The notes below the pieces were generated by a model. It was given only the letters and a program-made list of their open reading frames with translations, made no database searches and had not been told where the DNA came from. A DNA stretch of 64,000 nucleotides from Bacillota bacterium (lineage in GTDB: Bacteria; Bacillota; Dethiobacteria; DTU022). The stretch spans positions 1 to 64,000 of the forward strand of contig JAABTH010000003.1 of NCBI GenBank assembly GCA_011389985.1. The letters are read 5' to 3'. The position numbers and the translations under genes were made by a program. Below are positions 6,766 to 34,045 of the stretch, one piece after another; the first letter of the stretch is position 1, and every line of letters starts with the position of its first letter.

Positions 6766-6857
6766 GGAGAGATGGCTGAGTTGGTCGAAGGCGCTCGCCT
6801 GGAAAGCGAGTAACGGTGTTAAGCCGTTCGAGGGTTCGAATCCCTCTCTCTCCGCCA
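6766..6857 (+). tRNA. tRNA-Ser (anticodon GGA)
   Basis: Acceptor arms ggagaga/tctctcc, discriminator G and encoded CCA (6855-6857). The anticodon stem ctcgc/gcgag closes loop ctggaaa, giving anticodon GGA (reads UCC and UCU). A long variable arm and a canonical T arm (gagggttcgaatccctc) are present. The acceptor stem is identical to that of the other serine tRNA in the window. Confidence 0.97.
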
Positions 6858-6868
6858 ATTTTAAGTTT

Positions 6869-7137
6869 GGCCGTGCTAGACGGGGAGGTAGCGGTGCCCT
6901 GTACCCGCAATCCGCTATAGCGGGGTTTAATTCCTGTCCCCGGCCGCGCATTTTTAGGGTCAGCGCCATGTAAGTGGTGTCGAAGGCCCGGTCCCGTGCG
7001 GCGCAAGCTCATGAACCCCGTCAGGTCCGGAAGGAAGCAGCGGTAAATGAGTTCTTGTGGGTGCCACGGGGTTACCGGGCTGGAGCTAACTGCCTGGTAA
7101 GCGCCTGGGGGTGCCGGTCAAAGGCAGGTGCGCGGCC
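6869..7137 (+). ncRNA. ffs: Signal recognition particle RNA, long Bacillota type
   Basis: The 4.5S-like core of domain IV is unmistakable (GTCAGGTCCGGAAGGAAGCA, about 7020-7039), which binds Ffh. The 5' part contains the Alu-type domain (gtgctagacggggaggtagc), as in the long scRNA of Bacillus and Clostridia. The ends ggccgtgc (6869-6876) and gcgcggcc (7130-7137) pair and define a 269-base molecule, the usual length. Location between a tRNA-Ser and dnaX matches B. subtilis scr. Ends are inferred from pairing, not mapped. Confidence 0.95.
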
Positions 7138-29599: not shown

Positions 29600-30178
29600 A
29601 TGTATCTTATAGTAGGGCTTGGCAATCCAGGAAAAGAATATGCCGGCAGCAGACATAACCTCGGTTTTCAAGTTGTTGAGGCGCTCTCACACCACCTGCA
29701 GATAAAAGGAACCAGCAATAAGCATTGGGCAATCATAGCCGCATCAAATTACAAGGGTGAGAAAGTTATGTTGGCCCAGCCAATAACTTACATGAACCTG
29801 AGTGGACGTGCCGTCAGGGAACTGGTGCGATACTATAAGGTTGAATTGTCCGATCTGCTGGTAATGTATGACGATTTGGATATTCCCCCAGGGTCTATTC
29901 GATTGCGGGCCGGGGGGGGCAGCGCCGGACACAGGGGTCTTCAATCTATCATTGATTCGCTTGGCACAAGTGAATTTCCCCGCCTGCGGATAGGCATCGG
30001 TAAAGCTCCGGATGGCATAGAAGCAGCCGAATATGTGCTTCTCCCTGTTGAAGAGCCTGACAAAACCCTTTTAAAAGAAGCAATAGAGCGGTCTGTAGAA
30101 GCAGTTCTCAATTTTATTGACAGCGGTTTGGAATCGGCAATGAATATTTATAATAAGGGGTTGTCATCTGCCGATTGA
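29600..30178 (+). CDS. pth: Peptidyl-tRNA hydrolase
   Basis: Releases peptides from prematurely dropped peptidyl-tRNA. The 192 residues are full length: IVGLGNPGKEYAGSRHNLGF with the catalytic His near 20, the YMNLSG loop, MYDDLDIPPGSIRLR with the conserved Asp, and GGSAGHRGLQSI. ATG start with a gag site. Equivalent to B. subtilis spoVC. A hairpin overlaps the stop codon. Confidence 0.96.
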   Translation: MYLIVGLGNPGKEYAGSRHNLGFQVVEALSHHLQIKGTSNKHWAIIAASNYKGEKVMLAQPITYMNLSGRAVRELVRYYKVELSDLLVMYDDLDIPPGSIRLRAGGGSAGHRGLQSIIDSLGTSEFPRLRIGIGKAPDGIEAAEYVLLPVEEPDKTLLKEAIERSVEAVLNFIDSGLESAMNIYNKGLSSAD

Positions 30179-30197
30179 TGTGATAACCCTTTATTTC
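30155..30197 (+). terminator. Probable terminator of pth
   Basis: 12-bp stem (30155-30166 with 30181-30192, two G-T pairs) spanning the stop codon, followed by attttc-like T-rich sequence. Confidence 0.65.
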
Positions 30198-30227
30198 AAT
30201 ATAAATATAATTAAATGTGATGCAGAA

Positions 30228-30380
30228 GGAAAGTAGATCGGACAGGCTTTCCATCCAGAAAGGTTGGATCACAGGCTGAAAGTCCTTTCCGGCAGGTAGG
30301 GCGCATACAGAGGTGACGAAAAAACGTCATATTATTGACCCGACCACTTTCTTCAGGGGTTAATAGTGGCTGTTCCTCTG
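30228..30380 (+). ncRNA. Unidentified structured RNA element upstream of mfd
   Basis: The 309 bases between pth and mfd contain dense nested pairing. Domain 1: GGAAA/TTTCC (30228-30232 with 30286-30290), GGAC/GTCC (30240-30243 with 30282-30285), ATCC/GGAT (30253-30256 with 30266-30269), with a 5' bulge gtagatc and a GGCTGAAAG segment reminiscent of a T-box stem I. Domain 2: CAGAGG/CCTCTG (30308-30313 with 30375-30380) enclosing TGACG-A6-CGTCA (30314-30329) and a 9-bp stem TATTGACCC/GGGTTAATA (30333-30341 with 30357-30365), whose loop CCACT can pair with AGTGG just downstream as a pseudoknot. No T-box sequence or known riboswitch core was recognised. Confidence 0.45.
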
Positions 30381-30398
30381 CAGGCACTATTTAAGCTG

Positions 30399-30407
30399 TG
30401 GTATAAT
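30399..30407 (+). promoter_or_regulatory. Extended -10 promoter of mfd
   Basis: TGgTATAAT (30399-30407) with no good -35. Transcription would start near 30414, directly before the hairpin at 30419. Confidence 0.55.
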
Positions 30408-30418
30408 GTAGAAATCAA

Positions 30419-30446
30419 CGGGGGATCAAATAATTCCCCGCTCTTT
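30419..30446 (+). terminator. Attenuator-like hairpin before mfd
   Basis: 8-bp stem CGGGGGAT/ATTCCCCG (30419-30426 with 30433-30440), 6-base loop, then CTCTTTT. It ends 41 bases before the mfd start, so it could stop transcripts from upstream or attenuate mfd. Confidence 0.55.
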
Positions 30447-30487
30447 TGGTGTACTCTTAATAATGTAATCCCAGGGGGATAAAAATT

Positions 30488-33400
30488 TTGCTTGGAGATC
30501 TTTTAAAATTATGGCATGGGGATAAATCATTTAAATCCCTTTCTGAAGGTTTAATGAAGAATAATAGTTACAGGGCTGCTGTTACAGGACTGGATGGCAG
30601 CGCTCGCATATATTTTATGGCTGCCCTGGCAATGTTGCATGATCAGAAGACGGTTGTGATCACAGCAGATATGGCCCGGGCTGAAAAAGTTTTTACGGAG
30701 CTTGATGCATTCATGCCCGGATCGGTTGGTTTAATGCCAGCCCGTGAATTTTTTGTAAGCGCTGAGGTGGAATCACGTAGTGAAGAAATGCAGCATAAGC
30801 GCCTTCGTTACCTTCAATGGGTAAACAATGATGAAAAGGGAATTTGTGTTGCGCCGGCTTCTGCTTTTATTACAAGAGCTATTCCGCCTGCAATATGGAA
30901 CAGCCTTGGCTTAGAACTTGAAATAGGGCAGCGGCTGAACCGGCAAGATCTGATTGACCATTTGTTTGAAAGTGGTTATGAAAGGGTATCGTTAACTGAA
31001 ACAGCTGGACAATTCAGTGCCCGTGGTGATATTGTCGATATTTTCCCGCCCGGACAGGAAAATCCAGTAAGGGTTGAACTTTTTGATGAAGAGATCGAGT
31101 CACTCCGTTACTATGATCCGGCCACCCAGCGAACTACTGAAAAACTAAAGAACATTTATGTTTTTGCCGCACGAGAATTGATGCTACCGGCAGCTTACCT
31201 GGAAGATGGCATTAAATTAATCAATAAAAGACTGGAAAAAGCTCTTTCGGGTTTGCGGCGCCGCAGTGAAAATGAGGCTGCCGCGAAACTTAATCAACAG
31301 GTAATCAGGCATCTTGAACGATTGGAACATCCTGAAGGACTTGATTTACTCAGTTCATACCTGACTTTTTTCTACACCGGAGAGTACTCTATGCTTGATT
31401 ACCTTCCTGAAGGAAGCTTGGTTATAGCTGAAGAACCTCACGATATAGTAGAAAAGAGCAGAAGATTACATAAAGAATTAAAAGAATACAATACCGGACT
31501 TTTACTTGAGGCGGAAATGGTCGATTCAGGTCAAGAGCAGCTCTGGAGGGTAGAAGAAGTTTTATCCCGTCCTTCATACCCTCTAATTGGCTGTTCACTG
31601 TTTTCCGGAACGGGAGGTTTATTTGCTCCAGGGGCAAGCTACAGTATTGATACAAAAGCTGCACCTGTTTATCATGGCCAATGGGATTTATTAAAAAGTG
31701 ATTACTATAAATGGCTTGTAGAAGGTTTTAAGATTTACCTTGTAGCTGGTTCAGAGCAGCGAGGACAGGGCATGCGCGATATAATTACAGAACAGCTAAA
31801 AGGAAGCATGATTGACGGAGATAATTATGCCGAATCAGTTGGAGACAGCGATCAGCTGAAACTTGAGCTGATTACCGGTAACCTTGAAGAGGGTTTTATT
31901 GCTCCATCAATGAAAATAGTTGCTTTAACAGAGCACAATATAATCCCTCGCAGGAAAAAGAAAAGGCGGTTTGTAGCTAAAGATGAAGGCATCAGGTTAA
32001 GTGATTATCGTGAGCTGGCAGTGGGCGATTATGTGGTTCATGAACAGCATGGCATCGGGCTTTATCAGGGACTGCACACTTTGGAAGTGAGCGGTGTCAA
32101 ACGGGACTATCTCTTATTAAAATACAGGGGCACAGATAAACTATACCTGCCAATTGAACAGGTTGGTATGATCCAGAAATATTCAGGCGGTAACGGTCCT
32201 ACTCCCAGGTTACACAGCCTTGGCGGAGCAGAATGGCAGCGTCTTAAGAATAGAGTTAACCGCTCAGTTGAAGAGCTGGCCCGGGAGTTGTTGTCGTTGT
32301 ATGCCGCGCGCCAGGCGGTGGAAGGATACCGGTTTGGCCCCGATCATCCCTGGCAGCAGGAATTTGAGACAAACTTTCCATACGAAGAAACCCCTGATCA
32401 GGTGCGCGCCATTGCGGAAGTGAAAAGTGATTTGGAAAAAATTAATCCTATGGATCGCCTCATTTGTGGTGATGTTGGTTACGGTAAAACAGAAGTGGCT
32501 ATGCGGGCAGCTTTTAAAGTGGTATTGGAAGGCAAACAGGTAGCTGTACTTGTGCCCACAACAGTTTTAGCCCAGCAGCATTATCGCACTTTCAGGGAAA
32601 GATTTAAGGGTTTCCCGGTTAAAGTGGCTCAGCTAAGTCGTTTTGTATCTAGCTCAGCGCAAAAACAAATTATCAAAGATTTGGCTGACGGCAAAATTGA
32701 TATTGTTATAGGAACGCATCGCCTGCTATCAAAAGATATCAGTTTTAATGATTTGGGTCTGCTGGTGGTCGATGAGGAACAGCGCTTCGGGGTTAAGCAG
32801 AAAGAAAAGATGAAGCAGATGAGGCTGGAAGTTGATACTCTTGCTATGACTGCAACGCCAATTCCCCGAACACTTCACCTGTCGCTTGCAGGGGCACGGG
32901 ATTTTAGCATTATAGATACACCTCCCGAGGATCGTTACCCGGTTCAGACTTATGTAATGGAATACTCGGAAAACCTGATCAAAGAGGCAGTGCATCGTGA
33001 AATGAATCGCCAGGGTCAGGTATTTATTGTATTTAACAAGGTTGCCCGAATCAATGCTTTTGCTGAAAAAATTCAGGATCTTTTTCCTGGTGTTGAAATT
33101 GCCGTAGGGCACGGACAGATGCCGGAAAAAGTTCTGGAAAGAGTAATGACTGATTTCCAGGAAGGGTATTACCAGGTCCTGGTTAGTTCAACTATAATTG
33201 AATCAGGGCTTGATATACCAAATGTGAATACCCTGATTGTATGTGAGGCGGATCAATTTGGCCTTGCACAGTTATACCAGATCAGGGGCAGGGTTGGTCG
33301 TTCGAACCGCTTGGCCTATGCCTACCTTACTTACCGGAAAGATAAAGTAGTGTCAGAAGCGGCCCGGAAACGCTTGAGAGCAATTAAAGAATTTACTGAA

Positions 33401-34045
33401 CTTGGATCTGGTTTTAAAATCGCACTGCGCGATCTTGAAATAAGGGGAGCAGGCAATATACTTGGTGCCGAGCAGCACGGTTTTATAGCAGAGGTGGGGT
33501 TTGACCTGTATGTCAAATTGCTTGACCAGGCTGTCGCCGAACTGAAAAATGAAAAACCAGAAGTCAAGGCCGAGCCACGCCTTGAGCTTCTGGTTAGCGC
33601 TTTTCTCCCCTCCTCATATATTACGGCTCAGGATCAGAAGATTGATTTTTACCAGCGAATATTCAAAGCTTCGTCTAATGAAGAGTTAGCTGAAATTGAG
33701 GAAGAAATGATTGATCGTTATGCTTCCCCGCCGGAACCTGTTCGAGCCCTTCTTAAGGTAGCCTATATCAGGATTCTTTCTACCCAATTAAGGATTGAAT
33801 TGATCAAACAGAAGCAGAACGAGATAATAATTCAATTTGCAAGAAGTGTATTTTCCGATCCGGCACAGGTTAGCCAGGTGACGGATACATTTAAAGGTCA
33901 TTTCAAAATTGTGTCAAGACATCCCCTCTCTTTAAAGTTAGCTAATAGTGACAGGCGGGTGATTACGCTTAATGAACTGGCAGCCTTTCTCGACTCTCTT
34001 CAAACAATTAATGCTGCTGAAGTCGGTAGTAACCAGAATGTTTAG
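30488..34045 (+). CDS. mfd: Transcription-repair coupling factor
   Basis: Removes stalled RNA polymerase from DNA lesions and recruits UvrA. The 1185 residues include the UvrB-like N-terminal module (TAGQFSARGDIVDIFPPG), the RNA-polymerase-interacting CarD-like domain (GDYVVHEQHGIGLYQGL, about 515-531), the RecG-like translocase with Walker A GDVGYGKTE and VVDEEQRFG, the TRG-type motif region and a C-terminal TRCF domain. TTG start with ccaggggg upstream. Full length, no interruption. The fin/yabK gene found before mfd in Bacillus is absent. Confidence 0.97.
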   Translation: MLGDLLKLWHGDKSFKSLSEGLMKNNSYRAAVTGLDGSARIYFMAALAMLHDQKTVVITADMARAEKVFTELDAFMPGSVGLMPAREFFVSAEVESRSEEMQHKRLRYLQWVNNDEKGICVAPASAFITRAIPPAIWNSLGLELEIGQRLNRQDLIDHLFESGYERVSLTETAGQFSARGDIVDIFPPGQENPVRVELFDEEIESLRYYDPATQRTTEKLKNIYVFAARELMLPAAYLEDGIKLINKRLEKALSGLRRRSENEAAAKLNQQVIRHLERLEHPEGLDLLSSYLTFFYTGEYSMLDYLPEGSLVIAEEPHDIVEKSRRLHKELKEYNTGLLLEAEMVDSGQEQLWRVEEVLSRPSYPLIGCSLFSGTGGLFAPGASYSIDTKAAPVYHGQWDLLKSDYYKWLVEGFKIYLVAGSEQRGQGMRDIITEQLKGSMIDGDNYAESVGDSDQLKLELITGNLEEGFIAPSMKIVALTEHNIIPRRKKKRRFVAKDEGIRLSDYRELAVGDYVVHEQHGIGLYQGLHTLEVSGVKRDYLLLKYRGTDKLYLPIEQVGMIQKYSGGNGPTPRLHSLGGAEWQRLKNRVNRSVEELARELLSLYAARQAVEGYRFGPDHPWQQEFETNFPYEETPDQVRAIAEVKSDLEKINPMDRLICGDVGYGKTEVAMRAAFKVVLEGKQVAVLVPTTVLAQQHYRTFRERFKGFPVKVAQLSRFVSSSAQKQIIKDLADGKIDIVIGTHRLLSKDISFNDLGLLVVDEEQRFGVKQKEKMKQMRLEVDTLAMTATPIPRTLHLSLAGARDFSIIDTPPEDRYPVQTYVMEYSENLIKEAVHREMNRQGQVFIVFNKVARINAFAEKIQDLFPGVEIAVGHGQMPEKVLERVMTDFQEGYYQVLVSSTIIESGLDIPNVNTLIVCEADQFGLAQLYQIRGRVGRSNRLAYAYLTYRKDKVVSEAARKRLRAIKEFTELGSGFKIALRDLEIRGAGNILGAEQHGFIAEVGFDLYVKLLDQAVAELKNEKPEVKAEPRLELLVSAFLPSSYITAQDQKIDFYQRIFKASSNEELAEIEEEMIDRYASPPEPVRALLKVAYIRILSTQLRIELIKQKQNEIIIQFARSVFSDPAQVSQVTDTFKGHFKIVSRHPLSLKLANSDRRVITLNELAAFLDSLQTINAAEVGSNQNV

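Follow-up and report, generated by a model that had tools for sequence, protein, structure and literature searches.

The pth–mfd gap of a Bacillota genome as a probable deletion scar holding a T-box relic, fdhC-side control DNA and a conserved mfd leader

In the window, a 64,000-nucleotide stretch of DNA from a Bacillota bacterium, the gene for peptidyl-tRNA hydrolase (pth, plus strand, 29600–30178, Pfam PF01195) is separated by 309 bases from mfd (plus strand, 30488–34045, Pfam TRCF, CarD_TRCF_RID, UvrB_inter and DEAD), which encodes the transcription-repair coupling factor and starts with TTG. Gene orders in relatives identify pth as the anchor of a T-box locus. An earlier note had described 293 nt of this gap as one structured RNA element with two dense paired domains, and the motifs quoted there were all found in a sequence check, at about the places given. 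The 293 nt as a whole fold better than dinucleotide shuffles (z −2.8, 2/200). Dense pairing holds for domain 2, which is significantly structured on its own (30305–30383, z −3.7, 0/200 shuffles), but not for domain 1 (30225–30295, z −1.3, 21/200 shuffles), and the hairpin in front of mfd is significantly structured by itself (z −2.5, 3/200 shuffles). The Rfam search that the note had proposed covered the entire window and, at a permissive E ≤ 10, the element itself, where it returned no real family; the matches to FTX_2 and L13 are chance. A genome search found no further copies of the 293 nt. Elsewhere in the window, Rfam places a bacterial large SRP RNA at 6871–7135 (209 bits), with a tRNA at 6766–6854 just before it.

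BLAST of the element against 60 related genomes returned matches in nine genomes of the same family (E 1.4e-11 to 5.6e-4), each lying within query positions 1–101 and always just after pth. In these relatives, a full T-box leader extends from the matched region, with a terminator and with GGGTGGTACCGCGG or a close variant of it; the Rfam T-box (RF00230) threshold is exceeded by eight leaders of the locus, and the genes behind the T-box encode DAHP synthase and prephenate dehydratase. A UUC (Phe) specifier, GAAGUUCC, is present in 15 of 15 aligned relatives and absent from the window. By this homology and synteny with intact T-boxes, 30161–30285 is identified as the decayed 5′ end of a phenylalanine-sensing T-box leader; the T-box resemblance noticed earlier in domain 1 is thereby borne out, and the option of a decayed leader, offered among others, proves correct for this domain.

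Specifically, the plus-strand segment 30161–30189 aligns with 15 relatives and putatively represents the remains of the promoter from which the lost T-box operon was transcribed, with a −35 element TTGTCA (30161–30166) within the 3′ end of pth, a 17-nt spacer, and a decayed −10 element TAACCC (30184–30189). The aligned relatives keep the TTG, and their −10 elements mostly end in T (TAAAAT, TAAACT, TAAGAT, TAGAAT). The plus-strand segment 30195–30285, recognized by BLAST and alignment, is what remains of the 5′ portion of a leader of the tRNA-Phe type, through its distal loop GGCTGAAAGTCC: similarity to relatives runs through the promoter, GATGCAGAAGGAAAGTAG and the distal loop, and then ends. 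The 18-nt GATGCAGAAGGAAAGTAG (30219–30236) is identical to the T-box consensus of the relatives, and the GAGA bulge is altered in the window (CAGAAAGG). Homology to 15 relatives covers the 5′ half of stem I and its distal loop; the lower 3′ strand of the stem is missing. The fragment is like T-box leaders of the tRNA-Phe type (RF00230, DAHP synthase–pheA) in its position after pth, its −35 site, GATGCAGAAGGAAAGTAG, an AGAGAGG-type motif and the distal loop GGCTGAAAGTC, and is 72–80% identical to the family's intact leaders. Unlike them, it has no specifier loop, stem II/III, antiterminator or terminator, its −10 element is decayed, and it has no Rfam match. The absence of a T-box antiterminator had been seen correctly, as GGGTGGTACCGCGG is missing from the gap and present after pth in intact relatives.

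Because the specifier, antiterminator and terminator are gone and the −10 element is damaged, the fragment can, to judge from its sequence, no longer act as a T-box. The operon genes are gone as well; aroF–pheA have been deleted at the locus, and the next gene is mfd rather than one for a tRNA synthetase or for amino-acid biosynthesis or transport, as a T-box would control. The window genome carries nine other T-box matches, seven of them above the cut-off, and, at another place, a distant pheA (37% identity, C35); such switches are therefore missing only at this locus and not from the cell. The very good conservation of the retained stem I motif could reflect recent loss or some retained use. 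We nevertheless consider it very unlikely that the fragment is transcribed today and serves some purpose, such as that of a small RNA binding tRNA or of a component in a new leader for mfd: the consensus match of the 18-nt GATGCAGAAGGAAAGTAG and the better-than-chance folding of the 293 nt would fit such a use, but domain 1 by itself folds at chance level, the −10 element reads TAACCC, the specifier has been lost, and the congener G001 has no trace of the fragment.

An intact UUC T-box directly after pth, in front of DAHP synthase and pheA, occurs in 13 genomes of the same family, with the complete operon in G027, G015, G003, G005, G034, G028, G065, G060, G063, G002 and G010, and with the T-box, aroF and the start of pheA, where the locus is cut, in G031 and G014. 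Two further genomes keep the T-box without one or both genes: in G016 (L097 667–2000) the T-box is followed by pheA, with no aroF found between them, and in G030 (L083 726–1418) a complete orphan T-box lies directly upstream of mfd, with pheA gone and an aroF fragment left. Remnants of pheA, both of them 3′ fragments, also occur between pth and mfd without a T-box, one frame-broken (L179 6831–7195, the same locus as G035) and one in G006 (L023 5231–5461). The T-box operon is wholly gone from G001, G007, G020, G033, G023, G004, G018, G025 and G013. As read from these comparisons, deletion is recurrent at the locus and the window is one more stage of decay. The named relatives are Syntrophomonadaceae MAGs with sediment-type isolate names (CSSed, T1Sed, T3Sed), and appear to be of the type that PMC6146748 describes from hypersaline soda lake sediments.

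Downstream of the T-box relic, window positions 30294–30479 match the congener G001 (69%) directly upstream of mfd and downstream of fdhC. The G001 neighbourhood consists of a divergent fdhC (formate/nitrite transporter), then an iron alcohol dehydrogenase, a histidine kinase and an NtrC-type sigma-54 activator. The window genome (G000) has no fdhC by a search whose query matches relatives at 74–83%. In all seven relatives with fdhC, a sigma-54-type TGGCAC-N5-TTGC precedes the gene and a TGACG-N7-GTCA lies ~80–160 bp upstream of the predicted fdhC promoter (at most one mismatch in each case), and the relatives' locus also encodes an NtrC-type regulator. In the leftover DNA of the window (~30295–30385), the inverted repeat alone remains; the sigma-54-type promoter and the genes are gone. 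The repeat is the palindrome TGACGAAAAAACGTCA (30314–30329), a perfect TGACG-N7-GTCA that forms the inner hairpin of domain 2 and is equally an inverted repeat in DNA. On the layout seen in the relatives' fdhC promoters, TGACGAAAAAACGTCA is probably the leftover enhancer (UAS) of a lost fdhC promoter. The relatives resemble known sigma-54 promoters with NtrC-type enhancers in having TGGCAC-N5-TTGC at fdhC, the palindrome upstream, and genes for the sigma-54 activator and its kinase within the block, whereas the window has the palindrome only, as a putative binding site. In loci L078–L091, the interval between the alcohol dehydrogenase gene and mfd contains a divergent sigma-54-type fdhC promoter with the conserved TGACG-N7-GTCA, in some cases TTRACC-N5-AGGTAA sites as well, and the block is linked to an NtrC-type regulator and kinase; these fdhC promoter sites may possibly belong to a formate or alcohol regulon.

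Since TGACGAAAAAACGTCA is linked to the relatives' fdhC promoter, the strongest fold of the element contains a conserved DNA palindrome, and this bears on the proposal that domain 2 acts on mfd as a conserved structured RNA containing the nested CAGAGG/CCTCTG helix. Such an RNA would agree with the low folding z of domain 2 and with the 15 of its 23 pairs that can still form in G001. The outer helix described in the earlier note is indeed present in the window, but G001 can form only 2/6 of its pairs while keeping those of the palindrome, so conservation as an RNA structure does not extend to the nested domain. Furthermore, domain 2 is located upstream of the mfd promoter and therefore outside the mRNA made from it, and its inner hairpin coincides with the conserved palindrome tied to the divergent sigma-54-type promoter. 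An RNA of this kind is accordingly judged very unlikely, and domain 2 is better read as fdhC-side DNA. The element as a single folded RNA was rejected because its parts have different origins, and the suggestion of a stand-alone small RNA finds no support, given three pieces of different origin and a domain 2 unconserved as structure.

The stretch in front of mfd (30399–30455) is still conserved and, as the alignments indicate, is the living piece of the gap. All of its features are on the plus strand. The putative mfd promoter has an extended −10 element, TGGTATAAT (30399–30407), with TGTTATAAT at the same place in G001; an extended −10 element is found in the window's genus, and TTGACG/TATAAT pairs are found at a similar place in several other genera. 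It is followed by a leader hairpin, CGGGGGAT-loop-ATTCCCCG (30419–30440), which is picked up by a terminator-type scan and by covariance model R1, and by a U-rich stretch and TGTAC (together 30441–30454, with TGTAC at 30450–30454), aligned in A1 and A4. A Shine-Dalgarno-like AGGGGG of mfd (30473–30478) is aligned in G001. The extended −10 element and terminator-like hairpin reported earlier are thus both real and both conserved.

Across the family, the layout is a G4-5/C4-5 hairpin (G4/C4 in the window), a U-rich stretch and TGTAC, mostly 32–57 nt before the mfd start. TGTAC is invariant in the 21-sequence alignment A1 and kept in 24/25 sequences of A4. Model R1 gives one strong match per genome, in 24 genomes at E ≤ 3e-5 and in G035 at 0.002, including G005, G061 and G066, which were left out of model building; the next gene is mfd in all but G061, where the contig ends right after the element. 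Matches weaker than that of G035 were rejected, those checked by protein (L168, L170–L173) having no locus genes nearby. All 25 leader elements fold into the hairpin (mean z −2.1). In the alignment, 81% of cells are paired and G-U pairs are tolerated. The covariation score is reached by 12 of 500 shuffles and the three double-change pairs are at chance level, so that covariation of the hairpin is suggestive and not proof. The element matches no Rfam family, and outside the family the pattern CCCY-TTNTGNTGTAC is unlinked to mfd, except in G053, where it lies upstream of mfd.

In G049 and G053, from another family of the order, a hairpin and then GTGTTGTAC precede mfd, and in further families of the order (L261, L260, L268, L270, L271, L269, L263) a longer hairpin with a GTCTATTTCTGTTTTAT-type U-rich tail lies upstream of mfd, preceded in two of these genomes by TATAAT ~18 nt before the hairpin. 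These hairpins differ in sequence from those of the window's family and are compared with them by layout. Because hairpins with U-rich leaders, for example GTCTATTTCTGTTTTAT, precede mfd in a second family, the architecture is perhaps wider.

The hairpin at 30419–30440 might serve only to terminate transcription from upstream (pth), with no role for mfd. It is G/C-rich and followed by U's, the scan (G/C hairpin, then at least five T in 8 nt) matches it with an 8-pair stem, and in genus g4 (e.g. G004) the hairpin lies close behind pth with no evident promoter between them. However, the tail is weak (CTCTTTTGGT; U-tract CTCTTTTGG), and where a TATAAT is nearby, the hairpin lies ~9–31 nt downstream of it. 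In addition, the short distance from TGTAC to the mfd start leaves little room for another promoter, conservation of TGTAC goes far beyond the need of a terminator tail, and the element stays at mfd even in genomes whose pth lies kilobases distant (G027, G003, G007, G020, G033). A terminator serving pth alone is hence rather unlikely, and a leader of mfd is preferred.

Transcription of mfd probably begins from 30399–30407, which would place the hairpin, the U-rich stretch and TGTAC near the 5′ end of its mRNA, where they most likely affect early elongation into the gene. By analogy, hairpin-U-TGTAC probably tunes the entry of RNA polymerase into mfd via pausing or partial termination. The proposal of a new cis-regulator of mfd finds no support for either dense domain and may hold only for the last 45 bases (hairpin-TGTAC). 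The Mfd enzyme acts on stalled RNA polymerase, pushing or releasing it. We regard as quite improbable the idea that the leader serves mfd alone, as a promoter-proximal pause or attenuator through which Mfd monitors and restrains its own amount; dedicated control of mfd rather than a regulon is a fair guess only, because the element is single per genome and found at mfd only. Open-access text, titles and abstracts yielded nothing relevant on mfd autoregulation or an mfd leader attenuator. Hairpin-/NusG-stimulated pauses in Bacillus subtilis 5′ leaders (PMC12288461) have a hairpin directly before a T-rich stretch of the non-template strand, and the mfd leader resembles them in its RNA hairpin, adjoining T-rich stretch and promoter-proximal position. 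It differs in its fit to TTNTTT, which is good in some members (G003, G018) but loose in the rest, the window among them, and in that the conserved TGTAC is outside the known signal.

Taken together, the pth–mfd gap is very probably a deletion scar, composed of a dead T-box 5′ fragment, probable fdhC enhancer DNA, and a living mfd promoter and leader. The ancestral order would have been pth, the Phe T-box, aroF (DAHP synthase), pheA and then mfd, and in several genera the ancestral locus would also have had a divergent RR-HK-Fe-ADH-fdhC block before mfd. A deletion running, in one step or more, from T-box stem I into the intergenic DNA between fdhC and mfd would have fused the three leftovers. 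The junction is placed at 30286–30295, where T-box similarity stops (~30285) and G001 similarity begins (~30294). The assembly is a draft in 45 contigs, probably a MAG, and the precise junction could therefore have arisen as a join during assembly, although pth and mfd are commonly adjacent in the family. The closest congener, G001, has lost the T-box separately or completely, and no sister genome confirms the window's junction. The T-box relic and the fdhC-side DNA most likely have no effect on mfd.

This reading removes a candidate new RNA class: a deletion scar that brings part of a riboswitch, operator DNA and a promoter next to each other is found to mimic one. A further outcome is the short, conserved leader element of mfd, unmatched in Rfam, which makes the regulation of this gene testable. 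For Syntrophomonadaceae-type MAGs, the locus documents a T-box-controlled aroF–pheA operon that has been lost repeatedly, with several stages of its decay preserved.
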